Assembly: GCF_026914265.1 (NCBI RefSeq)
Contig: NC_069124.1
Span: forward strand, 5,324,713 to 5,388,712
Direction: 5' to 3'
Origin: Mya arenaria
Taxonomy: Eukaryota > Mollusca > Bivalvia > Myida > Myidae
DNA: 64,000 nt
Shown here: one piece after another, positions 10,858-41,100 of the stretch
How positions within the stretch are numbered: position 1 is the first letter of the stretch
Layout of the letters: each line of letters opens with the position of its first letter
Notes under the pieces: generated by a model
Databases searched by the model: none
What the model was told of the DNA's origin: nothing
Seen by the model: the letters and a program-made list of their open reading frames with translations, nothing else
Made by a program: the position numbers and the translations under genes

Positions 10858-12089
10858 GAGAGGTTAGGAATCAGATTATTTGTGACTTCATGAAGTCATA
10901 GCACATGGTACTATCCCTTTATGAAGTACAGTGTGTTTTTCTCTCTCCATTTTATGAATGAGGCCGGACTCTTTTTACTTGGTAAAACTGTGTAATTTTT
11001 TAACCTTAATTGGGAATTAATATTGTCTAGAATGCGCAAAAAATACACAGATCAGATAAAAGAATGTTGTATTATTTCAGTTCTCCAATACAAAAATGGT
11101 TCGGAGGTCTTTTTTTAAATTAAATTTGATTTTTTTTTTTATTCCCCAAAACGTAAAACAAGGAATTTCATTTTTACATTTGAGAAAAAGTTTCAGCATC
11201 GTGGATGCCTTGATTGGGCCCTATATAGGTCAGAAAAAAATAATGTGACCATTCAGTATGAGACAAAAAAACAACAACAATATCAGCGCACCTGTTGTTC
11301 TGTTTGGATCTTGTTTTATTGAGAGTTTTACTGTTCATTATGTAATGGATTTATCAGTGCTTAAGTATTGTTTCCAATGTCTTACTGTATTTCCTGCTGC
11401 TGTGGGCATGCATTTAAACTACAGGATGTTTTCAAGTGTTGAAAATGTGTTGAAAGTGTTGTTATTTCAAGATTTTTTTATTTAACCCCATGTTGAATTA
11501 ACCAGTAATTACAAATAGCAGTTAGATTATGTTGAAAAGCCCTGTACTATTAAATGGTCTTTTATGAACTTGAAATGCTCAGTATTTGTACATGAAATGC
11601 TACCGGAGATATATTAAAACAGTTTTATCATGTTTAGTACTGTTGTTATAAAGTAGTGTATACTGATTTAATAGTCATTAATTTTCTAACTGTATAATAT
11701 TTCCATTGTAAGATGTCGTTCACTGACTTGTTTTATAATACAGAATTCAGTGAAGCCTTGTTGTATATTATAAGTTTAATGTGATAGATGTTTTATATAT
11801 ATTTTTGTCTTTTAACTTTTCTGGTTGTAAATTCTGACTGTTTGCTCTGTATGATTGAACTTTTAAAATATACAATTTGAGAACATGCACTGAAAATAAT
11901 AAACAGTTTTCTGGTGGGGTGGGGGAAGAGGATAAGGGGTGAAAATAAATATGAGGTATTGCAATAGATTTGGTGTCATCTTTATTATTGTTCAAAAGCT
12001 TTAACGTTGGCCATTACGCCAAAAACCATTCAAGACGTAGTACACAGACCGCATCAACATCATCATGTCTATACCAGTGACACTCTGTA

Positions 12090-12325
12090 CACGTGCATCA
12101 ACACCCATCCCCCGTGCTTCAAGATCCATCCCCCGTGCTTCAAGATCCATCCCCGTGCATCAAGACCAATCCCCTGTGCTTCAAGATCCATCCCCCGTGC
12201 TTCAATACCCATTCCACGTGCATCAACACCCATCCCCTGTGCATCAAGACCCATTCCATGTGCATTGAGACCCATCCCCATGCATCAAGACCCATCCCAG
12301 GTGTATCAAGACCCATCCCCCGTTA
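12090..12325. repeat. ~21-bp minisatellite
   Basis: About eleven imperfect copies of gtgcatcaagacccatcccc. Because the unit is 21 bases, it opens long frames on both strands; none has a gene context. Confidence 0.9.
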
Positions 12326-14208: not shown

Positions 14209-17200
14209 ATGGAGACTTACCAGGAAAATGGATTACTGCACGAAATGTTCATGCGTCAGGCGGCACGGACCCCGGAAGTGGTGGCCGTCGTGGAGGCATC
14301 GGGCCGCCAGGTGACGTTCGGAGAGCTAGATCGCCAGACAAACGCCCTCGCTCACCACCTGCAGGCGCTCGGCGTGCGACCGGACACGTGCGTCGGTATC
14401 TATATGGACAAGTGTATCGAATACGTGGTGGCGTACATCGGCATCCTGCGGGCAGGCGGCGCTTACATGCCGCTAGACATCTCCTACCCGGAAGTTCTTC
14501 TGAAGGACATACTTGCAGATGCCCAGCCAGTGGCCGTGCTTACAGAGGGCGGACTTATAGACAAACTGGAAGGTTTATGTTGAGATTTTCACTATTGCCC
14601 CCATTAATAATGAAAATATTTGAAAAATTCTAACCAATTCAATAAATATTATGAAAACCCGTATGCGCACAGAATTAACTTGTACTTGCCATCAATTTTA
14701 TCCAATTTCATATTTGCATAGAAGCAAGAGCCACTGTATGTTTGCGCCTTTAACTCTAAAACAATTTCCTGTCAATAGGCACGAAGAACGTGTTGGTAAT
14801 GGGCCCAGGTTGGGAGAAAGGCCCACTGAAGACCCCACAACAGGACATAGCCGCGCCCACACTGGACAATCTCGCGTACATCGTCTACTCCTCGGGAACT
14901 ACCGGCAAACCAAAAGGTACGAGCTAAGTCAAATAAATACTAGGTTTGTTTCGTTGCTCTGTGTTTCAATGTCATACAATAGAAATAACGAGGTAGTATG
15001 TTTTGATGACAGTCAATCATATATGAGGTTATACATTTAATATGTTAAACTAGCTAACTGTAGAATGCTTGATTGTATATGCACCTCTTCTGTTCAAACT
15101 CTCTGCAAAACACGTCTTTTTAACTTTATGCGTAATATTACTTTGGCCTTATAAATTCATGTTTCCAATAAGATGAACAAATAACGTCATAGAGGACGAT
15201 TTTAGGTCATGTCGACTTTTGACAGTAAAGAGCGACCGTTTCCTGTTTTGAATTGCTAACTCCACCAGTTAATCTGTATGAATTACGTATTTTAAGATAT
15301 AGAACCGTGACATATCTTTAACACTGTAATTTATCCGAAAGTGGAGCAAATAAAATAAATGTCCCTCCCTCCCCCTAAAAAAATCAAAAAAATCTTGCAT
15401 CGGCATTTCTATGCTTTCCTTCTAGACGTTCAATACGCTTGTTTTAATTCGAAACATATCATGTACTAATGATATCTTGGACCACTATAACTATGCTCTT
15501 TCGAAGGATTTCTTTCATCGGCGCATATTTGCGTTCCGCGTCATCTACATTTATTGACAGAAATTGTTCATGGGGGAATGAACCCGTCACGTGTTCGACC
15601 TATATATGCCGAGGTATGGGAGTCGGGGAGGTGGACGTTAGCCTAAAGCGTATCATATTCCACATAAAACATATCCCTGTTGAAGGAGCACCACCAATAT
15701 TTACAGGTATCCGTTGCCCGCACCGAGGGGCGGTATTCTCGTACACAGCCCGTCACGTGTTCTACCCATACGGAGAGGAGGAGAGGGAGGCGTGTAACGT
15801 ATTCTTCGTCTGGGAGATGCTTAGGCCTCTTATCAAAGGTAGACTAAAAGCTTAAATTGGCTTCTTTGTTAACGATTGTGCAATACAAATAACTAGAATA
15901 TAAACTTTTAAAGATAACTTAAAAAGATAATCCCTTAATCCAACATACCAACTATTTTAATGCCCGGTTAAAATAAAACACCAACCTCTTCTTTAGCACC
16001 TTGAACTACGATCCACCCCTACCATGCTAGGGTAACCACATAATACCATCATACAATTGTTACTGTCAGAAGTTCATTTTAGTGACCAGAAAATATAATT
16101 ATCTTTATATTAGAATATGTAATATATTCATTTAGCACTAAATTTAATTATACACCACCCGTCTCGCAGGAGTGCCCCTGTACATAATCCCAAGCACTGT
16201 GATCTACGACCCGCCCCTACTGTGCAAGTTCCTCTGTAATAACAAGATAACCCGGATGTTGTTCACGCCGTCCCTGCTCGAGGCCGTCCTGAACACACCA
16301 GACCTTGATCTTCAAACATTGCTCCTACATATGAGGTATGAACGATCTAGTGTAAACTGTTATTTATACTGTTTAACTGTTTATAACTTTATATATACGT
16401 AAATGAGATTCTTTCAAGATAATAGGTTATCACTGAAAAAATGATCGTGCCTCTTATATAAACACCATAACAGCAGTCTGATACAGTATGGGATGGCATT
16501 CGTTAATGTTATTAAAGTTGTAAATCTCAACGTATCGTTGAAACATGCCGATAATAGACATCATGCAACTGTGCACACATAAACATCAATTATACAAATG
16601 TAAGCCGTCCTCCACGGATGTAGTTACTATAGGCACATTAACGTTCACTTCTGCTCTTTCAGGACAATTATATTTTGCGGTGAGGTGGTGACGACATCAC
16701 TGTTCGCCAAATGCCTGAAACTTTTACCATGGATACAGTTCGTGAATCTGTACAGCGTCTCCGAGTGCCACGACGTCTGTTACGAGGATCTTAATAAATA
16801 CTTCGCCGATAACAAGGTAACATTAGTCACGCATTTCTGTGCTGGAAGTGTAAAAAATGTTAATAGTGTTTCATTAGTAAATGGAGATATCTGTTTGTTA
16901 CTTTGTCTTTTCATTTGACGCACTGTGGCACTGATTACTAGTTTCCAAAGCACAACTAAGTACAACTGTTTCCAATGGTGTGCATGACTCGTCCGTTCAT
17001 GGACACGTTAGAAACAAATCATTCCTTTCTAGTTTTTGTGTAATGCATGCCCTTGTTTTGCAGGATGCCATTGTTGCCCGGAAGTTCTGTCCGGTGGGTC
17101 GAGTAATTCCACAGGTTAATGTTGTCATCTTGGACGCCGACCTCAACCCGCAGGCGGTCGGCAGCTCAGGCGAGGTAAGTGCGTCTCAAAAGAATTGGTG

Positions 17201-20200
17201 TATATTCACATAAACTGGGTATTTCGAACTCGCAATGTATAACATACAGCCTACATGCAGTCTCTTTTAGGGTTAGTATATGGTTCGGGCTATGATTCTC
17301 TCTGAAAGGCTTTAAGTCAGTAGAAAAAAAAATCTTAAACTGTTCTTTTCACCCCATTAAAAAAGGCAAGGGAGTGAAAAATAAAATAAAAACTACAGTG
17401 ATTGCATACAGGTTGGCTCCCTTTGACTGTTTTTTTTTTACTTGGTAACAAGAGCAATTTTGATAATGTTAATAGCCATAATCCAGTAATGCATGCCGAT
17501 ATTGGAGCCGAGCTCTCACTATTAAGCTTTATGCTTACATGCTTACTACCCACAGATCTACGTCGGCGGCCCAACCCTCGCCTTAGGGTACCTGAACCGA
17601 CCGGAAATCCAAGCGAAGCGGTTCATTCCCCGGCCAGCCAGCGTCCCGGAAACGTGTGGGTCGACACTGTACCGCAGCGGCGACTGGGGCTACATGCTGT
17701 CTGACGGAAGCCTTGAAATCTGTGGCCGCTGTGACTCCATGGTGAAAGTCAGAGGATACTCAATCGAGATCCAGGTAATGTGTCCAACGTTAGAATAATT
17801 AAACTCCTTCTGGTCATTAAGTCATTCCTCTCAACATAATTTTGTTTGTCGAATCAATCAATTAATCAATGAAGCAATCAATCAATCAAACAATCAAACA
17901 ATCAATCAATCAATCAATCAAAAGTCAATGTTTAAATCAACTAACTAACCAATCATCCCGCCTTTGAAACAATTTATCGACTGACGAACCAACAAGCAGT
18001 CACTCGATTAAGCTAACCATCTAGCAATCAGTCAAACATTAAATTCAACTTAACAGGCAGTTGAGGCAGCTCTGATGGAACTACCAATGGTGCACAGCTG
18101 CGTTGTTTTGGTAAAAGGAGCAGAAGGAGAAGACAAGTTTCTGGTCGCCTACATCGTGCCATCACAGGAGACCAACCGGAAACTAGTCAGGGATGCGCTC
18201 AAAAAGCGACTCCCATTCTACATGATACCCTCCTACTTTATGTTCCTATCAAAGTAAGTCGTGTTTAGCATTATGATCTGGTATGTATAAGATTAAAATT
18301 AATTCGTGTGTTGTTGTTTTTATCATTAACGCGCAATGTTTATAATTAAAGAACCATAACTGATAGTTCAGCAATTAAAGAAAATTTTATTTCATAAAAC
18401 CCCCAATGTGGATCCGTTTTATAGAATTCCAGTGGTCGCTGCGACGGGTAAACTGGACAAAGCTGCGTTACCACCCTACGATGCACAGACGGTCACTGAC
18501 GTCATCAATGAAGGACGACCGACAACAGAGACTGAGGTTGCCATGGCAGCCGTCTGGTGCAAGGTGCTCCAACTGAAGGAAGCAGACATACACGAGGGCT
18601 TCTTTGACCTTGGAGGGTATTTGATTGCCAAATCTTGAAGATCTTATAAATATTTTCTGTGAGAACGATTGTTGATAACACCACGGACATATTAACTGAT
18701 ATACTGTATGTCCGTGATATCACGGCTCCATAATCTACAACAATCCTGTTTTTGATGAAAAAGACACAACTCAATGAGGATGGCATTATGAAAATAAGTG
18801 TTATGATAGGAAAACCGTATCTGTTGCTGGGCATACACACTATTAGATCACCCAATCTCCGTTTTAGGGTAATAAGATTGTAGATTCATATTAACTTTTC
18901 TTTTTACTATTATCAGACATTCGCTGCTTGTGGCGGAGCTTATCAACAAACTCACGGCGCTGTTTGACGTTAAGTTGAACGTGGAGGACCTGTTCACGTG
19001 CCCGACCGTAGCGCGCCTCAGTCAGCTCGTGGACGCCAGAAAGGGCCGCACGGAGCAGCCGAAAACTTCCGTCGCGGAGTCAGTCGACCTTATGGCAGAG
19101 GTGGAGCGACATGACTACATGATCGTTAAGTAAGTCCTTGTTATCACCGATGTTGATTAAAGGGAACAGCTTCTTGTTTATACTTACTGTAAGTTTAGCC
19201 AACACTCATCTTTCAATTCCGCTCCTGGATTTCGTATAAAGCAGTACTGGGCTCCATTTTAAAAGGCCACAGGTAAACGTCTCTGACGCTGCAAGGATCG
19301 AACCTGAAATATTTGGGAAGAGGCAGACACCGCTTTATTTATGACGCAAATAGAACTTGTTTTTGCAGACTCGCGATAAGGGTCAAATTGTAAAATTATC
19401 ATTTAATATAAACACCATCGCGTTGCTATGTGATTTTGTTTGTTCATCATTAAAGAATAATTCAGTTTTGAATAATAATATATACCTTTTGTTCTGCAGT
19501 ATTGACATGCAGCTGCGCGCGTTCTGGCGGATGTTCGCGGTTTACCAGGAGCGGCGGTTTGAAAAGGGTCGTGTCCTCCTGACCGGGGCTACAGGGTTTT
19601 TGGGAGCCTTTCTTCTCAAGGAACTACTAACACAAACCAAGGTACAAATGCATTTTATATGAGTGTATTCAATGAAATAACGTACGTCGGATTTATACAC
19701 ATCCATGTTTGCTTACATGTATGTGTGATTCGTCCACAAAATTTGCCTAAATACACACATGAAACTAATTTGAAGCCATTCTGGCAAATTAGGAAGATTT
19801 CATCAGGTACTCACATACCTCTATTTAGGGAGAGGGTCTTATCTTTGCATTAAATACAAAAATGTTCTTGTGTCACACTGCAAAATGACGACATTTAAAA
19901 TTTATTTATTTTTTGTTTAATTATGTACTGGCATAATGCATCATGAACAAGTTTCATTACGAACTTAATAATCTTTGCGAATTACCGCAGGTGTTTGTGT
20001 TTTGTGTGTGTCGTGAGTGGCCGGACGCCACCCCGGCCGACCGGCTGCGCCAGACCCTCGTGAAATTCGGCATTCTCGCACCAGAAGGGAACACCGGGAC
20101 GCCTGAACAACAGGAAATGGAGCGACTGGTTTCAAAACGGGTGATGCCTATGAAAGGTTTGTACCATACTAGTCACATATTTTACCACATCAAGTAATTT

Positions 20201-22892
20201 TTGGAGAAGAAACTCGTACATATATGTCCATAATTTCAGACGCAAAACTAATTTTAACATTGCGTCATTGCTGCATCTAAATAGTTGTAATTTACGTGAG
20301 TTTTCCATGTTGACCGTCTACAGGTGACGTAGCGCTCGTGCACCTGGGCTTATCGGACGAGGACTACACGTACATGAGCTCAGACGTCGACCTCGTCGTT
20401 CACGCCGCCGCCAGCGTCAATCTCGTATATCCATACACGGTAAGTGTAACAACAAGTGTCTGGTTGAGAGAGAACGCCATTTTCTCGAGTTCTTAGAGCT
20501 AGAAATTCTTGGTCTTTATGCCGTGGTCTATCATTCAATGGCTCTGACGTCAATCTCGTATTTCATAATGTGCGCTCTGAAAAAAGGTCGAATAAAATGG
20601 ACATGAACTAGCAGTGTTCAATCTGGCCAGGCTTTATACATCCTCACACCTTTTCTTGAAAACACGTTTTTGTCCTTCAGGCTTTGGTTGGGCCGAACGT
20701 GCATGGCACAGCGAACGTCATCAAGTTTGCCTGTGCAGGGAAAATCAAACCCATACACTACATCAGGTACTTCAAATATTCACTAAAATAGATATATAAC
20801 AGCAACTGAACATGCATGATAATGATGTGGATATTGTCAGAAGGCATTTTCATATACGATCCGGAAGTCAGTGTCAATTTAGAGATACATGTACTAAGTT
20901 CAGTATTAATGCATTTACAATACAACGTATATTCATCATATTTTTTTTTGTTTTCTCTCTGTCCAGCACAGATGCTGTTTTCCCTGGAGGAATGACCATG
21001 TGCAGCGAGGAAGACGACGCCCTCGGATACGCTGGCCGCCTCGAAGATGGCTACTCGAGGAGCAAGTGGGTCGCTGAGCAGCTCGTGCGCCGCGCCATGC
21101 AGCGAGGCCTCCCCGCCACCATTTACCGCCTAGGTACGTCTATGTTTGTAAGCGTGCGTGTCAAATACCCAAGTTGTCTTGTGACGCAAAGAGCCACGTT
21201 AATGTTTTTAGTCGCAATATGTGTTACTTCAGTTTGAGCTGTCGTGATTGGAACGATTTTTAGAAAATGATAGTTTCAATTATAGTTTTCAAATCGTCCA
21301 TAATTGATACGTTTTCATTCATCAATAGGCAATATGTCTGGTGACCGCAAGCAAGCATTCTGGAACCCACAGGATTTTACACTGCTTATGTTACAAGCGT
21401 CTATAAGACTCGGGCTTGCACCGGATGTGGACTGGGATATGGAGATGACGCCCGTCGACTTCGCAGCTGAGTTTGTAGTCGCTATGACCAAAAGGTCGGG
21501 ACTTAGCTTGGGGAAGACCTTTCATATAATCAACGACAAACCGCTCAAGTCAAGGTATGTCAACTTCCGGCATTTTCCGGCATTGCTAATAACAACAACA
21601 ATCCTCATACAAAGTTTGCACTTGGTTGAACATCATGGACGTCGTTTTTTTTATAAATTTGATAGAAATAAAGTGTTTTCCTATCTATTTTCTTTGCAGA
21701 TTGGTGTTCGAGTGGATGAATGCGCACGGCTACCCTATTCAGTTTGCGACATTTCATTCTTGGAGACAGAGGTAGAAAATCTCTTTATTGATACTTTCAT
21801 TTATTTCTTATTAACAAAATGAAATTAGCGTTGTAACAATGTGGATTGAAATGTCAATCGATTCATGTTCGTACCGTTTTATCAAACGTTCACAAATCCT
21901 TTTGTTTTCAGAGCTTTAGAGGAATTCGGTACAGAAAATAAAGACAGTCTTCTACGCAGAGTAATAGAATCATATATAACGTACGTATCTGGAAGTTATA
22001 CCTAAGTGAAAAAATAAACCATGATATAGCCATATTATACCACCGCTTTACAAAGTAAAGTGCGGGCTATAAAGGAATCGCACACGTCGTCACGACCGTC
22101 CGTCCGTCGGTCGGTCGGTCCGTCCGTCCGTCCCGTGTCTTATTCCGGGCCACACCTTTCTCATTCATATTCCGATTTTTAAATTATTTGGCAGAACTTG
22201 CCACCATAGTATAAGAACTTGTCTCGCACAAGACCCGTGTCCCTACCTTCATGGTCAAGGTCACAGCAACCTTCTGAACTTTGTATGTTTCGCTATATAA
22301 GCCTTAACGCTATAAGTGCGTGTCCCGGTCTTAATCGGATCCAATGTTTATGATAATGATCATTAGATCCGATGAACTACTTGTAAACAAATAGCATGAT
22401 AAAAATGGTATAAAACATTGAACTAATCCAAAATCGTTCAACATTTGTACCTTTTTTTTGCGAAATTGTTTGTGAATCCAATCTTTTTCTTTCAAATGCA
22501 GAGCATTAGCCTATTCACCTGTTTTAATACATAATAAAATCATTTTATTCGGCCAGGGCAGAATACAGTCCTGTATCCCTTCTTATTAAGTATATACATA
22601 ACAAAATATGTTTATTGATTTTTTTCTTACCGATACTGCCACCTATCATTAAATCTATTACTTAATATTTTTCAGCAACGCTGCATTTTTCTCCAACTTA
22701 AGTTCATACACGGCCGACACCCTTCACAAAACCACCTCACAAATTGGCCTGTCCTTTCCCTACTTGGACTGTGAACTTCTGGCCGTCTACTTCAAGCATC
22801 TTAGTTCCAGAGGGATTATTCAGAGAACTCGACAGAGTTCAACCATAGGTGGAGTAAATTTTCATCGTGTTCAACGACATTTGAATTACTAA
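14209..22892 (+). CDS. NRPS-like carboxylate reductase: adenylation - carrier - thioester reductase (A-T-R)
   Basis: Predicted to adenylate a carboxylic acid, load it on a phosphopantetheine arm and release it reductively as an aldehyde with NAD(P)H. Exons: 14209-14572, 14779-14916, 15707-15838, 16170-16335, 16663-16816, 17064-17174, 17556-17774, 18057-18253, 18425-18616, 18917-19129, 19500-19641, 19991-20156, 20324-20439, 20681-20766, 20967-21133, 21329-21554, 21700-21771, 21912-21980, 22676-22892. They give 1048 residues plus stop. Motifs: YSSGTTGKPKG (A3, ~157-168), NLYSVSE (A5, ~295-301), LYRSGDWG (A7, ~393), GRCDSMVKVRGYSIE (A8, ~412), GKLDKAAL (A10, ~503), FFDLGGHSL with carrier Ser560, LLTGATGFLG (R-domain Rossmann, ~656), DLVVHAAASVN, and GYSRSKWVAE (catalytic Tyr/Lys, ~829). 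There is no condensation domain. Start: the first in-frame ATG (14209) leaves a normal compact N-terminus; the frame is open upstream to 14107, so an extra 5' exon is possible. It resembles Lys2 and fungal ATRR; substrate unknown. The SDR gene follows in the same orientation. Confidence 0.88.
17850..17925. repeat. (ATCA)n microsatellite
   Basis: Interrupted run of aatc/atca tetranucleotides in intron 7 of the A-T-R gene. Confidence 0.9.
22030..22270. repeat. Dispersed (GTCC/GTCGG)-rich repeat at the duplication breakpoint
   Basis: It starts caccgctttacaaagtaaag, then has cgtccgtccgtcggtcggtc-type simple repeats, then accttcatggtcaaggtcac. This layout resembles the head of the element at 7049. 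The left edge of the 5.5-kb tandem duplication (about 22227) falls inside it, and the caaggtcacagcaaccttct part recurs at the start of unit B near 27825. Confidence 0.55.
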
Positions 22893-23023
22893 ATAAGTTC
22901 ACGTAATTCTGGATCAACCCTCGTTACGGCTCGTATTATAATTTATGTAGCAGCTTGTATGCTTCCCGTTTAGCCATTTATTTTGTTACGTCCCTTTGTC
23001 TCGGAACTGCCATTTACCACTCA

Positions 23024-26000
23024 ATGGCTGAGAACAGTGCTACATGTAAGAATTTTCTTATTTTCCTATTTATTGATGAATACATGATGATTTATTGTTA
23101 TCCTTTTTGCTATATGAATGAAAGTATACATGTGTGAATTGAATACATGTGTTTAACATAATTAACATGTTTAATTATGCATTAATGCTTTATATGACTT
23201 CGTATTTGATCACGGATATTTGAATAATAGTATGTCAAGTTAGTGATTCTAAAATGCCGTCCAGGCTTTTTTTAATGATGCTTGCCTGGTCCATTTTAGA
23301 ATGACTACATAGTATGTATACATGTGTATTGTGAAAAGATGTCATTATGTTTTGTTTTAGAAGGCCATATTGAAAGTACGATGCTTTATAGTTGACACTG
23401 TAATTATGTCATAATGTGTTACCTTCTTAAAAAAAAAATGTTATTATTTTCATTTTACAGCCGTTCGAAATGCCAACCATAATATCAAATCAAATTTCTT
23501 TTCACAGGGAAGAGCCTGGATGGCAAAGTGGCTATTGTCACTGGCGCGTCCAGTGGTATTGGTAAAGCTATTGCCACGGCGATGGCTGCAGCGGGGGCTA
23601 AGGTTTCTATGGCGGCCAGACGGACAGACAGGCTGCAGGAAGTGGAGACAGCGATCGCAAACAAAGGGGGCGTGGCAATATCAGTCAAAACGGACGTAAC
23701 AAATAGGGAAAATGTGCGTTTATATGGGTAAAGACATTCGGAACTCCTCGGCCATTTTTTTCAAAAACAACCTCGGATGTATGCAGGTACATCAGTTGAA
23801 GTAGTTCGTAAAATTTTGAATTATATCATTAATTAAATGTAGTGTTTTAGAGTTTTATTTATTGATCTAAGTTTAAATTGATTGCCATTGAATTGTTTTA
23901 TTGCAAACATATTTAAGAATCCCAAGAGTAATGTCACAAAGTTTAACTGCTAAATAAAATTACTACGCGATCTACTTGCAGCGGACTTAAACGTACCACT
24001 TTTTGAGTATGTAAACCGTCCAAATACATCCGAGGTTGTTTTTGAAAAAAAATGGCCGAGGAGTTCCGAATGTGGGTAAAGATTGTAATAATTCCACCAA
24101 GTGTTGCATAACTTGGCATGGCCGTAGGAATTGATAAAATCTATCGGATCAACGTAATATGTTCAGATTCATTGGCATTGTTTTTGTTTATTAGAATCAT
24201 CAAAGGACAATAATAACATGCTGGTGCAATTTAGATGAGGGAACATTGTCAAATGTGACCTTTGTAAAGTATCCTCTTATCATTAGCTGTGACCTTACCG
24301 TGTAGTATTCAGGTGACAGTGTAAGATAATAGTCATATAAGGCTGTCCTTGACATAAGGTTAAGCCGGGGAGAAGGCCCTAACTGATGCATGCTTGATTT
24401 TATAATTTCGGTTTAATATTGTGTTAAACTTTGCATTGATATTCTCATTGTCAAATGTGTTTCCATGCAATAAAATATTGTAAATAAAACCAGTCCCCGA
24501 CAATGTACCCTTAACACAAGGTCTAACATTTAGCAATAATCATTGCAACTTATTTTTCTTTTAACACCTTCATTCACTATACCTTCTATCTTTAAAGGTC
24601 AAGGAGCTGTTGAGGCACACTGAGGCGACACTGGGGCCGGTAGACATTCTGGTGAACAATGCGGGCACCATGTACTACACCATGATGAAGAATCTACATG
24701 AAGATGAGTGGGACACACAGATTGACGTCAACATCAAGGCACGTTAAACACAGTTCTCAGACAACAATTACGAAATCTTAAAGAGTATATGCACGTTTGT
24801 TTTAAACACATGCCCGAATAACTGAAAGCAATCGCGTTTAAAAACATCCAGCAACAGTGAATGTATTCATATATGGCCGAAAATGGTGAAAAAATCACCA
24901 ATATCAATATGAACAGAAAGATAAACCCATTATCGCATGGGTGACTGCATTTTAGAAGTAGAACCCTATAATTAGAGCATTTTAGGGTGAATATAGTTAA
25001 TCAGACAGCTCCATTTCAATAATTACATTAAATCGTATAAACACGCTAGTATCATTTAACTGTCAGATGACCATTGTTTGTAGGGTTTAACGAACTGCAT
25101 TGGCGCTGTGCTAAGCGGAATGATCCAGCGACAAACAGGACACATCATTAACATGTCGTCAGATGCGGGGAGAAGGGTATCAGTATTCTTTCATTTCTAA
25201 AATGTGTATCCTAACTTGTGTTTGGTCTTCATCGCCATTTGTATACAACTTGGATTAGTTGTCCACTTGATATCTTAAAGCTACTTTGCAAAATCAAATT
25301 ATCTGATTTCCAGATTTCTGTTTTGAGTACTGGCATCGATAGATACACTGTTACATGTATATAAATGAAGAAATGTGTAATAACATTCCCCTCTACCAGG
25401 GTTTCCCGGGCCTAGCAGTGTACTCGGGGACGAAGTTCTACGTGGAGGGGCTGTCCCAGGCCCTGAGGCACGAAATGTCAGGGTCAGGGGTAAGGGTCAC
25501 GTGTATACAGCCTGGGGACGTGAAAACAGAACTTCTCCAACATAACTCGGACACAGAGGTAGGTCAATAACAATAACATTTTGAACAGTTCCACGTTGCT
25601 GTTTAGTTCCTGTATTAGACCATACTGTTGATGATAGTAAAGAGATACAATAAGTACATACATGAAGTTGAACAGCATCAGGTTTAGGTTTAAAAAGGAT
25701 CAAATGATCAGAAATTATCTAGGTAAATACATTAAGTTATATATACATTAGGTCAATTACCTTTGAAGACTCACTAAGTCGAAAGTATCGCACAAAAAAA
25801 ATCAAAGAATATAAATATCACCTTAGAAATTAAAAGAATCAAAGTATGTAAATATATGTTATTATTTGAAGTTCATTTTAATTGTACAATCTATTTCCCC
25901 AGGCACAGGATCAGTTTGACGGAAGCAAAAAGTGTAAAATCCTGGAGCCTGAAGATATAGCGAGGGCCGTGGTGTATGCCGCCTCCCAGCCAGCTCACGT

Positions 26001-26046
26001 CGGCGTCAACGAAATCCTTATAGAACCCAGGGAAGCTCCGATATGA
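23024..26046 (+). CDS. Short-chain dehydrogenase/reductase, YdfG-like (probable aldehyde reductase partner of A-T-R)
   Basis: Classical SDR of 254 residues. Exons: 23024-23045, 23508-23713, 24598-24738, 25084-25176, 25400-25558, 25903-26046 (TGA). Cofactor site [16 protein letters not shown] after the second strand favours NADP(H); DILVNNAG; catalytic Ser in [13 protein letters not shown] gives Tyr and Lys; the [15 protein letters not shown] segment is typical of the YdfG/3-hydroxyacid dehydrogenase branch. The start ATG in a 22-base first exon is a choice. The second exon is phase 1 and would also splice in frame from ATAG at 22848 in the last A-T-R exon, giving a 1281-residue A-T-R-R fusion. 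The third exon uses a GC donor. Poly(A) signal AATAAA near 26288. It lies 131 bases after the A-T-R stop on the same strand, so it probably reduces the aldehyde A-T-R makes. That role is inferred from position and family. Confidence 0.85.
23734..24073. mobile_element. 340-bp MITE with 48-bp inverted repeats and 8-bp target duplication
   Basis: Ends acattcggaactcctcggcc and ggccgaggagttccgaatgt continue as inverted repeats for about 48 bases (23734-23781 and 24025-24073). Flanked by gggtaaag at 23726-23733 and 24074-24081. Unit B has the empty site with a single gggttaat, which confirms an insertion after the duplication. The 8-bp duplication would fit hAT, though the repeat ends allow 8-10. 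It lies in the second SDR intron. Confidence 0.88.
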
Positions 26047-26560
26047 ACACAGGGACAATCTGATTAAAGCCCAGGGAGGCGTAAATTTATGAATGGAGAT
26101 ATTTACTGTGACAGCTGAAATTGATTTAAAAGACTAATATATGTATCTGGCTAACACGCCAGGAAGGGAACAGTCATATAATAAAACAGATCGATGTATA
26201 ATTATTATGAAAGAAACATTATAAACTGGGGAAGTGAACGCAAGAAAACTAGATTTTTTCAAAAATTGTGTTTGAGTGTTTATTCAAAATAAAATAGATG
26301 TCTGTACCATAAAATGTATATGGTACTCATGATGTCTCATGCAATAAATAAATCATATCTTCTTCTTTTTATTAAGGTCATTCCACGTGATGTTTCAGTA
26401 TACATGTTCGTTTCGTCATTGATTTAAAAGACGGCATATGATAGATTTGAGGAAAGAACGTCTTGCATATTAACTGACCAAACATGTGCCGATGAACTAT
26501 TTCACCGGACATAATCACTGGAAAAAATCTTCTACTGTAGATCTACATACTTTTTGAACT

Positions 26561-27687
26561 TCACTTTAAATCTACCGAGTATTTGATGAAGGCAGCATCA
26601 GTCTATGACTGAATTTGTGCTAGCCGCTGGACAACCCTGGATGGAACCTCAATTTTGTTAGATTTCTCTTCGAAGTTATGTTTTTGTTGCCGTTTGAACT
26701 TTTCACCGACTTTTCTTGCGTCTTCTTGGTCATTTTCGTCGTCTGAAAGCAGACCCGCGTCTCTATCACCCAGAAGCTTTTTAAAACCAGAAGACAAAGA
26801 GTTCGCCTCCTTTTGGAGAGCTTCTAGACACGCTTTAACACTATCATAATCACGTGATATCCCTTTTGTACTGATGACGACCTCATCTGGCAGTTTTGAG
26901 TAAAGGTAGTGGACCATTAAGAGTACATCATCATTGCACCTGCAATAAAATCGACAGTCATAATTTAAGGTTCAAACTATGCCTACTATAGTGATAGAGA
27001 CTGTAGGACAGTGGCTGTTTATAATTTCATTAAATATTCTACTTGAGTCACAGATCTACATGTAAGCAACGCTCCAACACGCGTTCTTGGAGGAAAACAT
27101 CCTGTGCAGAATGTCGCCGGAACTAGGGCAGTTATGTCTATGTTTTCTGGTTCATCGTTTAAAGGGGTGAAAAATGTTCTCCATTCTGTGAGTATAAACG
27201 TTTTTTTATACGTTTCAACGATACTTTTTAGAAACGACCTTGTGCACCGAAGTAAGAGCAATTCATTGTTTACGACTTGCTAAATGAGTTACTATCACTA
27301 ACTTTTGTACAATATAATATTATTATTGTTAAAATTATTGATCTGTTTTATAACTTCATGGTATACTGTCACTTTACACGAACCCATAGTATTATATTGT
27401 TACAAATATTCAACTTTCAAAAGAGCTTAAGTGAACAAGGTTAACAAACTGAGCCAAGAACACAGCATCTCTGGCTGGCGCTCCCGGTCGCTGCTCCCTG
27501 AGTCTTAACTGAACGCCAGAAAGAGCGGGGCGGTCGCTCATATAGCTGTCAAGGTAGTGATTGTAGCGGAGGCGACAGCGGTCCGTCAGCAGGGTTTCAA
27601 TGCGACACAGGACACTGGGGGAGGCGCAGATCTCCAAGTCGGTTGCCGACTGTATGGCCATGAAAGCAAGTCGGTCGTACCGGACAT
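26561..27687 (-). pseudogene. Orphan copy of the last two FANCB exons (unit A)
   Basis: 27450-27687 and 26561-26939 match FANCB exons 8 and 9 at 32107-32344 and 31343-31721. No other FANCB exon lies between this copy and unit B, so it is cut off from the gene body. In the exon 8 copy the acceptor AG used by the intact gene reads TG. In the exon 9 copy a stop at 26603-26605 removes the last 14 residues. The last exon otherwise stays open and very similar, so the copy is not ancient. Confidence 0.85.
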
Positions 27688-28148
27688 CAAATGATATGTA
27701 GGAGGACATAGTACCCTTTAGTTGATAAACCGAATTTGTATTAAATAACTTCAGTATTAAATTGGCATACAACATCACCCCTTTCTGTTTGCATTCACAA
27801 GACCCGTGGACTTACCTTCATGGTCAAGGTCACAGCAACCTTCTGAACTTAGTAAGTTTTGCTATATAAGGCATGATAAAAAATGGAATAAAACATTAAA
27901 ATTAATAAAAAAAGTTTAATATTTGTACCATATTTTTTGCGAAATTGTTTGTGCATCCAAGTTCTTTCTTTCAAATGCAGAGCATTAGCCTATTTCCCTG
28001 TTTAAATACATGATAAAATCATTTTATTGGGCCAGGGTAGAATACATTCCTGTATCCCTTCTTATTATGTATATATATATATCAAAAAATATTTTTTTCT
28101 GACCGATACTTACACCTAAACTTAAATCTATTACTTAATATTTTTCAG

Positions 28149-28370
28149 CAACGCAGCATTTTTCTCCAACTTAAGTTCATACACGGCTGACACACTTCAC
28201 AAAACCACCTCACAAATTGGCCTGTCCTTTCCCTACTTGGACAGTGAACTTCTGGCCGTCTACTTCAAACATCTTAGTTCCAGAGGAATTATTCAGAGAA
28301 CTCGACAGAGTTCAACCATAGGTGGAGTACACTTTCATCGTGTATTATATCAAAAGAAGTGTCCAACATT
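28149..28370 (+). pseudogene. Orphan copy of the last A-T-R exon (unit B)
   Basis: Corresponds to 22676-22892 and encodes the reductase C-terminus (SYTADTLHKTTSQIG, then LLAVYFKHLSSRGIIQRT). It has a good acceptor (tttttcag), but no other A-T-R exon is nearby upstream. Unlike unit A there is no stop after the HFHRV stretch: the frame runs on through the linker and into the first SDR exon of this unit. It could serve as an alternative 3' exon of A-T-R only by splicing over the whole of unit A. Confidence 0.75.
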
Positions 28371-28452: not shown

Positions 28453-30789
28453 ATGTCTGAGAGCAGTGCTATAGGTAAGAATTTGCTTATTTTTCTGTTT
28501 ATTTATGACTACAAACGTTGGAAAAATCCAAGTGTGTCATCAATCAATCTTTCTTTCCCAGGGAAAAGCCTGGATGACAAAGTGGCTATTGTCACGGGCG
28601 CGTCCAGTGGTATTGGTAAAGCTATTGCAACGGCGATGGCTGAAGCGGGAGCTAAGGTTTCTATGGCGGCCAGACGGACAAACAAGCTGCAGGAAGTGCA
28701 GACAGCGATCGCAAACAGCGGGGGCGTGCCAATATCAGTCAAAACGGACGTAACAAATAGAGAAATGTACGTTTATAAGGGTTAATATTGTAATAATTTC
28801 ATCAAGGGTTGCATTATTTGGTCTGGCCATATGAAATGATAAAATCGATCGCATCAAACGTAATATGTTTAAATTCATTAGCAATGTTTTTGTCTTATTA
28901 GAATCATCAAAGGAATAATAACATGCTGGTGCATTTTAAATAAGGGAAAAATGTCAAATGCGACCTGTGTAAAGTATCCTCTAACATTAGCTGTGACCTT
29001 ACAGTGTAGTATTCAGGTGACAGTGTCACATAATCGTCACATAACGTTAACGGACCTTGGCATAAGGTTAAACCCGGAAGAAGGCCGTAACTGATGCATG
29101 CTGGAGTTTATAATGTCGGGTTACATATTGTGTTAAACGTTGCATCGATTTTCTCATTGACGTTTTCATGCAATAAAATATTATTAAGCCAAGCCCTTGA
29201 CAGTGTACCCCTCACCCCAGGGTCAAACATTTAGCAATAATCATTGCAACTTATTTTTCTTTTAACAACTTCGATATACATATAAACTTCTAACTTAAAA
29301 GGTCAAGGAGCTGGTGAGGCACACCGAGGCGACGCTGGGGCCAGTAGACATTCTGGTCAACAATGCGGGCACCATGTACTACACCATGATGAAGAATATA
29401 CATGAAGATGAGTGGGACACACAGATTGACGTCAACATCAAGGCACGTTACACACAGTTCTCAGACAACAATTATGAATCTTATATATACATGATTATTT
29501 TAGCACGTGTCCTGATTACTCAAATCAATCGCGTTTAAAGAACATCCAGCAACAGTGAATGTTTTCATGTTTGGCCGGACAATTACCAAGAAAATGCATC
29601 AGTATGAATGAATCTTGTAAGAAGATAAAGGAACTCATTATCGCCTCGGTGACCGCACATCAGAAGTAGAACCCTATAACTACAACATTTTAGGCTATAA
29701 TGTAGTAAATAAGAAAGCTCATTTACACTAAAGTACCAACTATAAACATTAATTACATTCAATCGTTTAAACACACTAGTATCATTACGGTAACTGTCAA
29801 ATGCCCATTATTTGTAGGGTCTAACAAACTGCATTGTCGCTGTGCTCGGCGGAATGGTCCAGCGGCAAAAAGGACACATCATTAACATGTCGTCAGATGC
29901 GGGGAGAAGGGTATCAGTATTCTTTAATTTCTGTGTCAACTCTGTAACTTGTGTTTTGTCTTTAGCACCATTTGTATACAACATTAAAAAGTGGTCCCCA
30001 TGTTATCTTAACGCGACTTTGCAAATTCAAATTATCTGATTTTCAGATTTACGTTCTGAGTACTGGCATGGATAGATACACTGTTACATGTATATAAATG
30101 AAGAAATGTGTAATAACATTCCCTTTTACCAGGGTTTCCCGGGCCTAGCGGTGTACTCGGGGACGAAGTTCTACGTGGAGGGGCTGTCCCAGGCCCTGAG
30201 GCACGAGATGTCAGGGTCAGGGGTAAGGGTCACGTGTATACAGCCTGGGGACGTGAAAACAGAACTTTTCCAACATAGCACGGACACAGAGGTAAGCCAA
30301 TGCCATGTTGTGTGATAATTTCGAAGTTGGCCTTCAGCCACTGTGGTTTAGTCCCTTATTAGACCAAACTGTTGATAGTAAAGAGATACAATAAGTACAC
30401 TGGTAATCGACATCAGGTTAGGTTTTAGAAAGGATCGAATGATCACAGGGAACATCTAGGTAAATACATGTAAGTAAATATATACATTAGGTCAATTACG
30501 TTTGAGCACTCACTAAGTCGAAAGTATAAGCACGCACAAAACTATTAATGAATATAAATATCACCTTAGAAATTAAAAGAATCAAAGTATGTAAATATAT
30601 GTTATTATTTGAAGTTCATTTTAATTGTACAATCTATTTCCCCAGGCACAGGATCAGTTTGACGGAAGCAAAAAGTGTAAAATACTGGAGCCGGAAGATA
30701 TAGCGAGGGCCGTGGTGTATGCCGCCTCCTAGCCAGCTCACGTCGGCGTCAACGAAATCCTTATAGAACCTAGGGAAGCTCCGATATGA
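28453..30789 (+). pseudogene. Decaying second copy of the SDR gene (unit B)
   Basis: Exons match the intact gene: 28453-28474, 28562-28766, 29302-29442, 29818-29910, 30133-30291, 30646-30789. Two lesions are visible. One A is missing just before the donor of exon 2 (gaaat against gaaaat), which shifts the frame if the same donor is used. In the last exon TAG at 30730-30732 replaces a Gln codon and removes the last 19 residues. A donor three bases further on (tac then gtttat) would restore the frame past the first lesion. Catalytic motifs ([18 protein letters not shown]) are intact, and the GC donor of exon 3 is kept. A truncated product is possible but a relic is more likely. Confidence 0.75.
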
Positions 30790-31342: not shown

Positions 31343-34300
31343 TCACTTTAAATCTACCGAGTATTTGATGAAGGCAGCATCAGTCTGTGACTGAAGTTGT
31401 GCTAGCCGCTGGACAACCCTGGATGGAACCTCAATTTTCTTAGATTTCTCTTCGAAGTAATGTTTTTGTTGCCGTTTGAACTTTTCCCCGACTTTTCTTG
31501 CGTCTTCTTGGTCATTTTCATCGTCTGAAATGTGACCGGAGTCTCTATCACCAAGAAGCTTTTTTAAACCAGAAGACAAAAAGTTCGCCTCCTTTTTGAG
31601 AGCTTCCCGGCACGCTTTAGCACTATCAGAATCACGTGATATCTCTTTTGTACTGATGATAACCTCATCTGGCAGTTTTGAGTAAAGGTAGTGGACCATC
31701 AACAGTACATCATCATTGCCCCTGTAATAGAATTTAAGGTTCAATCTACGCCTATTACAGTGAGAGAGACTATAGGCCAGGGGCTGTTTTTGTTTTCATT
31801 AAATATGTTATTTTGAGTCACAGATATATAAGCAACACTCGAACACGCGTTCTTGAACGAAAACATCCTGTGTGGAATGCCGCCAGAACTACAAGCAACA
31901 CCCATGACTTTTTTATATTTTTTAATCAGTTAATAACTGAAATTAAAAACTATTTGCTTTATGTGTAATTAACACGTACGTTTGCACAATATTAGTTAAA
32001 ATTCTTGATCTGTTTTATAAACTGTCACTATATACGAACCCAAAGTATTTTATTCTTTAAAAATATACAACTTTTCAAAAAGCTTAAAAAAACCATATTA
32101 TCATACTGAGCAAAGAACACAGCATCTCTTGCTGGCGCCCCCGGCCGCTGCTCGCCGAGTCTGAACTGAACGCCAGAAAGAACGGGACTGTCGCACATAT
32201 AGCAGTCAAGGTGGTGACTGTAGCGGAGGCGACAGCGGTCCGTCAGCAGGGTTTCAATGCGGCACAGGACACCGGGGGAGGCGCAGATCTCCAAGTCGGT
32301 TGCCGTTTGTATGGCCATGAAAGCAAGTCGGTCGTACCGGACATCTAATGATATAGAGGACACATTACCCTTCAGTTGAGAGACCGAATTTGTATGAAGG
32401 TATTTTTAGTATTAAATTGGCATAAAACATCATCCCTTTCTGCTCAACATTTGTTTTGTTTTATAAATAAGCAACTCAGAGCAGACGTCCGTCAATTTGT
32501 CAACAGCATCTAAGGCGGGAATATCTAATTTATTAAATAGATTTTAAAGTATAAACGTAATCACTCTATAAATAGCGTACCGTCCCAATCCCCCATTTCG
32601 GATTCCGCTGTATCGGCCGTGCCCTTGACTACGTCCAGCGCGTGGTTTCCCTTCAAAACGTCCGCAACGGCCAACGTTACTTGCCCGCACGGTCGAGTGA
32701 ACACTCGGGAATTTCCTTCACGTCTACTGCTTAGGCTATCTAGTACAAGTAGTTCGTTTGTTAGGACTTGCCAGTTGAGGATTAAAGTCAACTCGACTTT
32801 TTCTCCGTCAAATCTTGGCACTGACGTGACACTGAGTAGAGTTTCTTCACATGGTTTTGACGGCGAGTTGCTCGCGTGCACTTCATCAACCCCAGTTGCG
32901 TCGTTCTGATAAATGAACGGTAGTTTACAAATTAATTAGTTTTCGGGAAAAAAAACTTTTATCATACTAATAGTTTTAATTCAACGTTTAAAGTTGAGGT
33001 CGCAAAAGCATGGACACGAAACCAGACTACTACATATTGGAAGAGTAAGGCATACCTCCAAAGCGCCTGGCTCGCTGGAACTGTGCCCATCACCACACGA
33101 CTGATCAGGTGGTTCGATCAGTACACATCGGGCGTTGCTTGTTGTCATGGTTACACCCGACCCTCTCGCTGGAACCAGGTCTAGCCACGCCCTGACTTTT
33201 CTTAAGATAAAACAGAAAACAAAACAATAAGTTTTGCAAAGGAAAAGTCATATGACTTTCTGTGAAAATTATAAAAAGAAGAAGAATTATTTGTTTGAAA
33301 TGTATTTATTTTAACCGTGGACATTGCTGTAGTAACAGAAGTTGGGAACGAAATTAGCAAGTAGACGATTGCTCGATTCAATCTCCTCAGGGATGATATT
33401 TTGGTACCGTAAACATATCTGTTATAGTCTAAGAAATCATTATAAACAGTGTCATATTTGAAGGAATGCGTATGCTGGGCCATAAACTACCATCCACGGA
33501 CAATACATCCCATGGACATAACATCCCATGTCATTTTGACCTGGTGGTCCCCGCCTCCTTCTGGACATTATATCCAAATAAGTTTGTCAGTATGAGCACA
33601 CATTTATCACCACATTTTTTTCACAAATTATTAAATTATTTCTATCTAAATGTAAATGAGTGTTACCAAACAGTGAATAGACTGTCACTGTCAAAATGAT
33701 GTGGGAGGATTTGTCCATTGAATATTTTGTCTTATTTTCGGTTTAGTGTAATATCAACATACCGGGTGACTATCTTCATGTACATGTTTGATACATATGT
33801 TCAGAAAACTAGTCAAGATCACCATACCGTTCCGTTTTGTAAGAGATGACGACCCCAACACACCATTTATGCAGATACGTCTTCTGCCAGACATTCTTGA
33901 CATCGAATATAAAGCCCGGGGATTTGGTTCTTGTTGAGATCGTAATGTCAGTTTCCCCAGTGATGAGTGGCAGAAGATCGTACTGATAAAATACACATGC
34001 ACAATCTATATAATTTATATAAGAAACAAGTACGATTTGAGTCCCAAGAAACTGTTAAAATGATAAAAATCTTACAAACAATTAAAAAATATATACAATT
34101 ATACGTCACACTAATGTTAACAGCAGTTTAGGTTTCGGAGTGAGAGATAACTTGACAGAAAGTGCAACCTTGCCTTCGCAATTTAGCAATATCTTACTGG
34201 AAACTGAAAATTGTACCAGTATAGCAATGACCTTTTCGCACATAATTGTGTACGAGTTAGTATGGAAAATATATTTCGTTCCCTGCTTATTCATGTTCAA

Positions 34301-38134: not shown

Positions 38135-38165
38135 GATGCGATAAAACACGTCTACACTACTCCCT

Positions 38166-41100
38166 ATGGAAACTTCTAAGGAATTACCACCACATTTGGT
38201 AAACAGCATTCGAGGACTTCATACAAATGACGAGACTTCTTCTGAGTCGGAACAGGAAACGGAACCCAATACCTGGTCACATGACACCCCAAGGTCGGTT
38301 TCCAGTGATGACTCGTCGGCGTTAACCTCGCCACGTGCGAACCTTCTATGGGACCACGCGTTCGATGTTTCCGAGGCAGAGCCCGCGACATGCAAGTCTC
38401 CACAGGAGCGTGAACACGAATGGAGACGGTTCTACAATAAAACTGATGATGATAAATTGATAGCTGATAAACATCAGAAACTACATGAACTATCGAAGAA
38501 GACTGACGAAAAAAGTGAAAACGTCAGTGAGTCAACACAAAGATCCGAAAACAAGGCACCAATGAGTGGACTTCCAGATCTCATTGCGTCTACATCAACC
38601 ACGGTCGATCAAGCGCAAAGAGGCCATGATTGGTCACCGGCTCCGGATGCTTCCCCGCCGCCACTTCCGCACACTGCGCCACCAGAAATTGGAATAGTTG
38701 ATTTTCAGGCTGGCAGTCCGCCCCCACTCCCGTGCACAAGTCCTCCACATTTATCCCTTAGCTGGCCCTTGACTGGTAAACATGTCACACAAGCGCAGAT
38801 AGACGAAGGAATTAAGAGAGTAGACGCAATGTTACAGAACAGTGATAAGATCCTTCACACATTCGAACAGACTGACAATAAAGACCGAGATCAGAAGTTT
38901 GAGTCCCAAGCCAGCGATCATTGCATATACGACGATGCCAGCAGTAGCGCCGGTGATGAAGACTATGATCCATACTTGGGCGACTCAAACAATGATTATG
39001 ACGGAGTCTACAACGTACAGACCAATACTGTCATGGAAACTAATAAAGATGAGACGTATGCCGGTTCAGATGAGGAGTTTGACAAGATATTGCAGCAGTT
39101 AGACCAAGCAGAAGATCTTGAGTCTGAATTTGATGCCATCCTGAGAGCTTTGAACGCAGAAAGAGAACCACAGGAAACGTATGTACAACGATTTGCGGAA
39201 CGTCGTGACAGGTATGGCTTTATTTTGTCACCAGTCATGGAAGCCTCTTCGCCCTCACCGTCTTTGCTGTCTGGCTACAGTGGCGTGTCATGTGCGTCAC
39301 CAGATCGATTTGACACATTCAGAATGTCTCCAGCCATTGGCGCTAAACCGGAACTAGATTTAGCAAGTTTACGTGTTAAATCCCCAGATCTGAATAGCAG
39401 GCACCTCGCTTCCCCGCAAGGACGGGACGACCATGACTATACTGTGCCAATATTCCAAGCGAGGAGAGCGATAGTTATCCCAGAGGTTGGCTATGGGTGG
39501 GATAGTGGGGACGACCTTCTAAGCCCAACCGTGAGTTGTGAGTGGGACAAGGATGAACATGGTGGACTGAACACACCTCCTGTCTCTACAAGCGGCATCA
39601 ATTTCACTCAGTTTGGAACACGCATTGGAGGTGGATGGAGACAAACTGATGTGGCGATTCATGAAGAGAATGAAGATCAATCCGATGACACTGTTGAAGC
39701 AAACAGTGATTCCGATACAGACACAACAATTGAAAGTGATCCGGACAGGAACTCTAAACTAAACAGTTCACATAACTCAGTATTTTTGACAGATCTTGAA
39801 AATACAATTGGAGAAACAAGGCTGACGCCACGCACCAATGAAGACGAAATCAACCACAACTCAGCTGACGAGCTATTGGAATTAGAGGAGGAGATTGACA
39901 AAATCACTCATGAACTATCCCAAATAAACAGAAGAAACGAATCATTATTTGATGACAGTTATGATGACTTAGAGGCCTCAAAACAGGTTGAAACTAGCGA
40001 CACAAATATTAGTGTTGTTTCTCTTGAAAGCAGCTTAAATGATAGTTATAAAGGTTTCAGTGCAGAACTGTACAAAATACACCATCAAGCGGATCGGACC
40101 GAAATCACTGGAGAAACAATGTTCCGTAGTCCAGTAGTAAGATTGGACTCAAAGCAAACACTGACGACCTCAGATGATGATGAAAGTCATTCGACAGAAA
40201 GCAATGAAGACGCTGAAGATGAATACAGCGAATCAGATGATGAAAACGTTGATTTTGAGGAATTCAAAACCAAACCGGTGCCGAAACCGCCAATATTACC
40301 TTTTACAGAACAGAATGAAGACTCGAAAGTTTTAGAGGTCTTGTCACCAAGATCAGCTATTATTCTATCGGGCGGCATGTTTCCCCATGAGACAGAGTCG
40401 TCTTCTTATACTTCTAGCACCGATGATGAAGAATATGAAAGAACTGACAGGCAACTTACAGTCAAACAATATACATCAGGTGACTCTGATACAAGTGCTA
40501 AAGATACACTGACTACGGGCCAAGATGTCATTAATAAAGAATCAGATACTGGAAATAAGAATGAATCTCAAGTAAAGGTTTCATTTAGACAAATGTACGA
40601 ACTTAAGTCACCTCCCCAGAATCAATCTGAAACAGTATCGAGTCCATCCAAGTCGATAACAATACACAGTCCGATGGATTATTATTTGCTTGAAGATACT
40701 AAAATAGACACTGCTCGCAAAACTGAACTTAGACAATCACCAAGAATATTTGGCAGATACTATGCAGAAATGGACAAAGATATTGTCAATGAAGTCAGAT
40801 CTCCTCGTGAAAAAGAAAATGCAATAAATTTCGAAAATAATGAGATAAATAATACAAAACCTGAGGTTGATTATCTAAAGAAGCGCCAGCAATTAGAAGA
40901 CTCTTTTACTGATGTAGTCCTAACAAAGAAAGAACAATTACCCTTCATGACTCCTCCTGATAAACAAGCCAAATCAAAGGAAAGTCAGCCATCTGCCGTA
41001 AAAATTAAAATCGGACATTTACACAGATCAAGTTCAGCACGGTCAAAGGTGAAACGTGGATATGTTCACGAACTGTCCGAAATATTTGATCAAAAGAAAG

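Follow-up and report, generated by a model that had tools for sequence, protein, structure and literature searches.

Organization of the locus

The locus described here lies inside a chromosome-scale contig (C3) of the Mya arenaria assembly (18 contigs, 1.216 Gb), within a window, meaning the whole stretch of DNA that was analysed, of 64,000 nucleotides. Another contig of the assembly, C18 (17,947 bases), bears COX1 with in-frame TGA codons, a trait of animal mitochondria. Nineteen exons on the plus strand, rebuilt from exact sequence anchors (14209-22892), encode a protein of 1048 residues with adenylation (A), carrier (T) and reductase (R1) domains. The reading frame opens with an ATG at 14209 and closes with a stop codon that ends at 22892, and all 18 introns are of the GT-AG type and in phase, which bears out the 19-exon A-T-R gene of the preliminary description of this DNA.

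The A domain begins in exon 1 (14209..14572), which carries the start methionine, and continues through exon 2 (14779..14916) with its SSGTTGKPKG motif, exon 3 (15707..15838), exon 4 (16170..16335), exon 5 (16663..16816), exon 6 (17064..17174) and exon 7 (17556..17774), which contains YRSGDWG and VKVRG, to its C-terminal part in exon 8 (18057..18253). Exon 3 holds a shortened loop, NVFF-VWEM, at the place of Asp235 in gramicidin synthetase 1, and exon 5 reads YSVSECHDVC, with acidic residues on the pocket side. The lysine of GKLDK and the start of the carrier domain are found in exon 9 (18425..18616). The domain continues in exon 10 (18917..19129), where the GGHSLL motif spans the junction; it begins at residue 557, so that its serine is Ser560, the carrier residue originally named. 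R1 occupies exon 11 (19500..19641), which has the cofactor motif TGATGFLG, exon 12 (19991..20156), exon 13 (20324..20439), exon 14 (20681..20766), exon 15 (20967..21133) with YSRSK, exon 16 (21329..21554), exon 17 (21700..21771), exon 18 (21912..21980) and, for its last part, exon 19 (22676..22848).

An SDR, here called R2, follows on the same strand. Its five exons are a (23508..23713), with TGASSGIG, b (24598..24738), c (25084..25176), d (25400..25558), with YSGTK, and e (25903..26046), with the stop codon. The intron at 24738-25083 is of the GC-AG type, and the GC donor is kept in both copies of a tandem duplication described below. R2 can be entered in two ways. A candidate ATG of its own at 23024, 131 bases past the A-T-R stop codon as had been noted before, opens a short exon (23024..23045) with the donor GTAAGA. 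Alternatively, exon 19 may end at a TAG/GTGGAG donor at 22848, in phase 1, and its splicing to 23508 gives an open A-T-R-R chain of 1281 residues with no internal stop, the product that the phase of this donor had first suggested. If the donor is unused, exon 19 runs on through a tail (22849..22892) that contains the A-T-R stop.

Two repetitive features lie elsewhere in the window. A short tandem array with a spacing of 21 bases occupies 12069-12323, within an otherwise noncoding stretch, and repetitive open frames built of KTSQSQLILPH units (45382-46170) directly follow a long ORF at 38145-45401.

Domain composition and family scores

In the joined chain of 1281 residues, Pfam places AMP-binding at 15-368, AMP-binding_C at 430-497, PP-binding at 535-596, NAD_binding_4 at 656-903 and adh_short at 1041-1234. 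At E<=0.01 Pfam lists 15 families, and a condensation domain is not one of them, as the preliminary description had held. The order A, T, R1, R2 of this chain likewise matches the fungal ATRR with which the locus had been compared.

The thioester reductase model TIGR01746 scores 270.8 bits over residues 654-978, above its curated cut-off of 213.35. R2 is a classical SDR (adh_short, 194 bits), with TGASSGIG at 1046 and YSGTK at 1189, and its matches among solved structures are headed by clavaldehyde dehydrogenase. The amino acid adenylation model TIGR01733 reaches 301.7 bits, just below its curated cut-off of 317.4, which is in keeping with a pocket that does not take an amino acid. None of the structures matched by the A-T-R part is named ATRR in the 60 inspected of 238 distinct matching sequences, and a query of solved structures with the pocket only returned 3 general A domains.

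Scoring against the Lys2 and carboxylic acid reductase (CAR) models, the profile check proposed at the outset, bears on whether the A-T-R part could be a Lys2-type aminoadipate reductase or a bacterial-type CAR with an unrelated SDR beside it. Both models do match, Lys2 (TIGR03443) with 397.3 bits and CAR (NF041592) with 191 bits, but these scores lie far below the curated equivalog cut-offs of 1030.1 and 1300, and the A pocket lacks Asp235. Such an identity is therefore regarded as very unlikely.

The adenylation pocket

Aligned to 1AMU, the A domain shows a three-residue gap over the Asp235 loop, which reads NVFF-VWEM, and Asp235 itself is absent. The ten-position code obtained from this alignment is --WLICLVCK. 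The segment SECHDVC contains both a Glu and an Asp, and the column of the acidic pocket residue is uncertain owing to a one-residue insertion. The A domain of ATRR, which acts on glycine betaine, is described as lacking Asp235, with a shorter loop of hydrophobic residues and an acidic residue in the pocket (PMC7496086, excerpt). By alignment, the clam domain shares two of these traits, the missing Asp235 and the shortened hydrophobic loop. From the missing Asp235 it can be concluded only that this position holds no alpha-amino group.

A partial tandem duplication

Absent from the preliminary description is a tandem duplication, in which about 22.2-27.7 kb of the window is copied at 27.8-32.4 kb. 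The second unit includes exon 19 and all SDR exons and leaves out exons 1-18. Its exon 19 (exon 19') lies at 28149..28321 on the plus strand, followed by counterparts of the five SDR exons (28562..30789, plus strand). In this second SDR copy, exon a is one base short, which breaks the frame, and the last exon contains an in-frame TAG at 30730-30732; as assembled, it is a pseudogene. The duplicated unit also carries part of a coding region on the minus strand (26603-27811 and 31343-32405), in which one ORF, together with two adjoining ORFs, had no match in Pfam.

The two units differ widely in what they have kept. Their aligned noncoding columns are 79.7% identical, while exon 19 is identical at 167 of 173 positions, with 5 synonymous changes and 1 nonsynonymous change (dN/dS 0.06; P=0.0034 under neutrality for a nonsynonymous count this low). 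Not one of 2308 noncoding windows of 173 columns reached the 96.5% identity of exon 19, the maximum being 93.6%. A neutral, orphaned exon 19' should by itself have gathered 9 to 13 nonsynonymous changes; exon 19 and exon 19' together show 1 (P 0.001 to 0.00003 against the orphan). The SDR as a whole has 18 synonymous and 18 nonsynonymous differences between copies (dN/dS 0.29, P=0.0005), and exons a, c and d taken singly do not depart significantly from neutrality (P 0.22, 0.10 and 0.36).

This constraint suggests that the exon 19 of the second unit remained in use over most of the period after the duplication. As exon 19' encodes just the last part of R1, it would serve a purpose only if exons 1-18 were spliced to it. 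A possible alternative source of the pattern is gene conversion limited to exons, which could mimic constraint.

One chain or two genes

Whether the A-T-R part and R2 form one protein was left open in the preliminary description. A single chain is now favoured over two genes, since exon 19 is constrained in both tandem copies, which points to its use together with the SDR, but the donor at 22848 is weak: at 0.95 bits it falls below all 21 reference donors, the lowest of which scores 1.98. In the rival arrangement, two adjacent genes would lie side by side, with products that may still work one after the other as a split ATRR, the first encoding an aldehyde-forming A-T-R enzyme that ends at 22892 and the second a separate SDR that starts at the ATG at 23024. 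The exon opened by that ATG has the better donor (5.51 bits) and joins the SDR in phase to give 254 residues, and an SDR of this type is known as a stand-alone protein in a bacterium (134 of 245 residues identical). Yet the two sequences needed by a two-gene model show no constraint between the copies. The start exon is identical at 18 of 22 positions, and within its 7 codons all 3 changes are nonsynonymous. The stop tail of the A-T-R part is identical at 28 of 44, its 15 codons differing by 12 nonsynonymous and 4 synonymous changes, and its stop codon is absent from the tandem copy. If the genes were separate, a copied exon 19 would also be expected to decay, whereas it has been kept. Between 22849 and 23507, moreover, neither AATAAA nor ATTAAA occurs and only a weak AGTAAA is present, at 22853, while polyadenylation-type signals are found 3' of the SDR (ATTAAA at 26063, AATAAA at 26180). 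Two genes are thus considered possible but not probable, and a single-chain ATRR, counting a glycine betaine enzyme and one for another substrate together, is judged likely.

Three simpler arguments were set aside. The phase match at 22848 had seemed to prove a fusion, and the own-start exon a separate SDR gene. Of 688 noncoding frames sampled, however, 180 reach, ahead of any stop, a donor in phase that equals or exceeds the one at 22848, and own-ATG exons as good as that of the SDR occur in 88 of 246 sampled noncoding stretches of 615 nt. At these chance frequencies, agreement in phase is uninformative for both models. A sharp fall in identity between the copies exactly at the 22848 donor was also considered and dropped, since the fall comes about 22 bases later: the first 22 bases past the donor are identical at 20 positions and the next 22 at 8.

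Bacterial contamination or an assembly artefact deserves mention, as mollusc NRPS genes reported from short scaffolds have met with doubt on the former ground (PMC10531068, excerpt). Against this stand the 23 introns of the gene and its place within a chromosome-scale contig, and the noncoding parts of the tandem copies differ by about 20%, a divergence that makes two haplotypes of one locus unlikely. Either explanation is thus extremely improbable.

Proposed reaction and substrate

The best explanation of the locus, given roughly an even chance in its full form, is one gene of 24 exons (exons 1-19 and the five SDR exons), joined by the splice that we infer from 22848 to 23508. Its product would be an A-T-R1-R2 protein of 1281 residues, most likely converting glycine betaine to choline. 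The A domain would adenylate an acid without an alpha-amino group for Asp235 to bind, glycine betaine being the likeliest, and this acid would be loaded onto the phosphopantetheine arm at Ser560. R1, as a thioester reductase, would then release the aldehyde with NADPH, and R2, as a classical SDR, would turn the aldehyde into the alcohol, here choline. This succession of acid, adenylate, thioester, aldehyde and alcohol is taken by analogy from the domain families. A search of the clam genome for the PPTase family returned 0 matches, with one candidate scored; being exon-wise, the search says little about a gene split by introns.

From its predicted domain order and pocket, the locus is probably a mollusc ATRR acting as a glycine betaine reductase. 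A single-chain ATRR for a different acid, such as a betaine other than glycine betaine, a sulfonium acid or a simple acid without an amino group, is unlikely, even though the loss of Asp235 excludes only an alpha-amino group held there and the A domain of BurA, with the same type of pocket, takes a sulfonium acid (PMC7496086). Those ATRR proteins for which function has been studied are connected with glycine betaine in the excerpt of PMC11050029, where the link for the nematode protein comes from a yeast growth test and RNAi rather than from an enzyme assay.

The duplication invites a further, doubtful extension, in which a single-chain ATRR lets the clam recover choline from the betaine that it keeps as an osmolyte, and the gene can end in two ways, or could until recently. 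Exons 1-18 would be spliced either to exon 19 and R2 or to exon 19' and the second copy of R2, the frame of which has since been lost.

Relatives and the origin of R2

Searched with the A-T-R part, the clam genome gave 22 places, of which 20 belong to the present locus and two are intronless relatives on other contigs (C8 and C11) with 27-29% identity. The relative on C11 is an ORF of 1629 residues (L034:2809-7698, minus strand) and that on C8 one of 1285 residues (L033:2066-5923, minus strand), both of which have the A, T and R domains, and the C11 ORF carries an N-terminal formyltransferase domain as well, which would make it a formyl-A-T-R enzyme in an animal. The A pockets of the two retain Asp235, reading DASTIAAVCK on C11 and DASTIAAICK on C8.

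An exon-wise search with the SDR found at least 36 places in the clam genome, 10 at the locus and at least 26 elsewhere, the latter at 27-37% identity. An SDR of an uncultured Rubrobacteraceae MAG (L035:5986-6735, plus strand) is closer, sharing 134 of 245 residues (55%) with R2. That R2 resembles a bacterial SDR more than the 26 others of its own genome suggests, on sequence identity, that an ordinary animal SDR was not recently copied to form R2, and gives a hint that the domain came from a separate source. The bacterial SDR stands alone, with no A-T-R gene among the surrounding ORFs listed; it follows ORFs that, by eye, resemble sulfatase and adenylylsulfate kinase genes. It is the one bacterial relative found with near-exact patterns, and no direction of transfer is claimed. 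Among the prokaryote contigs, 8 stretches matched the pattern, of which 1, this SDR relative, was confirmed and none carried A-T-R-R, in a search by near-exact patterns, which covers close relatives. Among the viral contigs, 3 stretches matched the pattern and 0 were confirmed as relatives.

Implications for choline metabolism

If the enzyme reduces betaine, a marine mollusc could run the route from choline to betaine in reverse. The textbook animal route is one-way, by choline oxidation (PMC10577664, excerpt), and the literature search brought up one animal exception, the ATRR of nematodes (PMC11050029). Glycine betaine from Manila clam extract has been described as the factor that a parasite needs (PMC10577664). 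PMC10531068, as excerpted, surveys animal NRPS genes and gives mollusc examples on short scaffolds, where contamination is in doubt; an intron-bearing NRPS-like reductase is now placed on a chromosome-scale mollusc contig.

Comparison with known systems

Part of the clam chain has a counterpart in the PRK07201-type double reductases, in which a male-sterility-type reductase is likewise followed by a classical SDR. Their model (NF005539) matches residues 655-1234 at 208.8 bits, short of its cut-off of 549, and the family, unlike the clam chain, has neither an A nor a T domain. The A domain of BurA resembles that of the clam in its missing Asp235 and short hydrophobic loop, and an acidic pocket residue is described for BurA, which differs in being part of an assembly line, whereas the clam protein would be an A-T-R-R reductase (PMC7496086).

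A close counterpart is fungal ATRR, which reduces glycine betaine (Hai, Huang and Tang 2019, as cited in PMC11050029 and PMC7496086). The clam chain and this enzyme have in common the order A-T-R1-R2, the lack of a condensation domain and an SDR as R2, which is YdfG-like in the fungus. Compared by description, their A domains also share the absence of Asp235 and the shorter hydrophobic loop. The clam gene differs in its many introns and its partial tandem copy, and its single chain is predicted.

An ATRR in an animal is not new as a kind, as A-T-R1-R2 proteins are reported from plant-parasitic nematodes (PMC11050029). The nematode MiATRR has 1306 residues, compared with 1281 in the clam, and 32.62% similarity to the Aspergillus protein; it was examined in a yeast growth test, and five of its pocket residues differ from those of the fungus. 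The same source credits the 2019 survey with finding atrr genes in fungi and in several protists and several invertebrates. The nematode protein has functional data, whereas the clam enzyme, from a mollusc, is predicted from its sequence. The matches listed in the literature search included no report of ATRR from a mollusc, and a mollusc ATRR with a copied gene end, as proposed here, is new within the literature searched.
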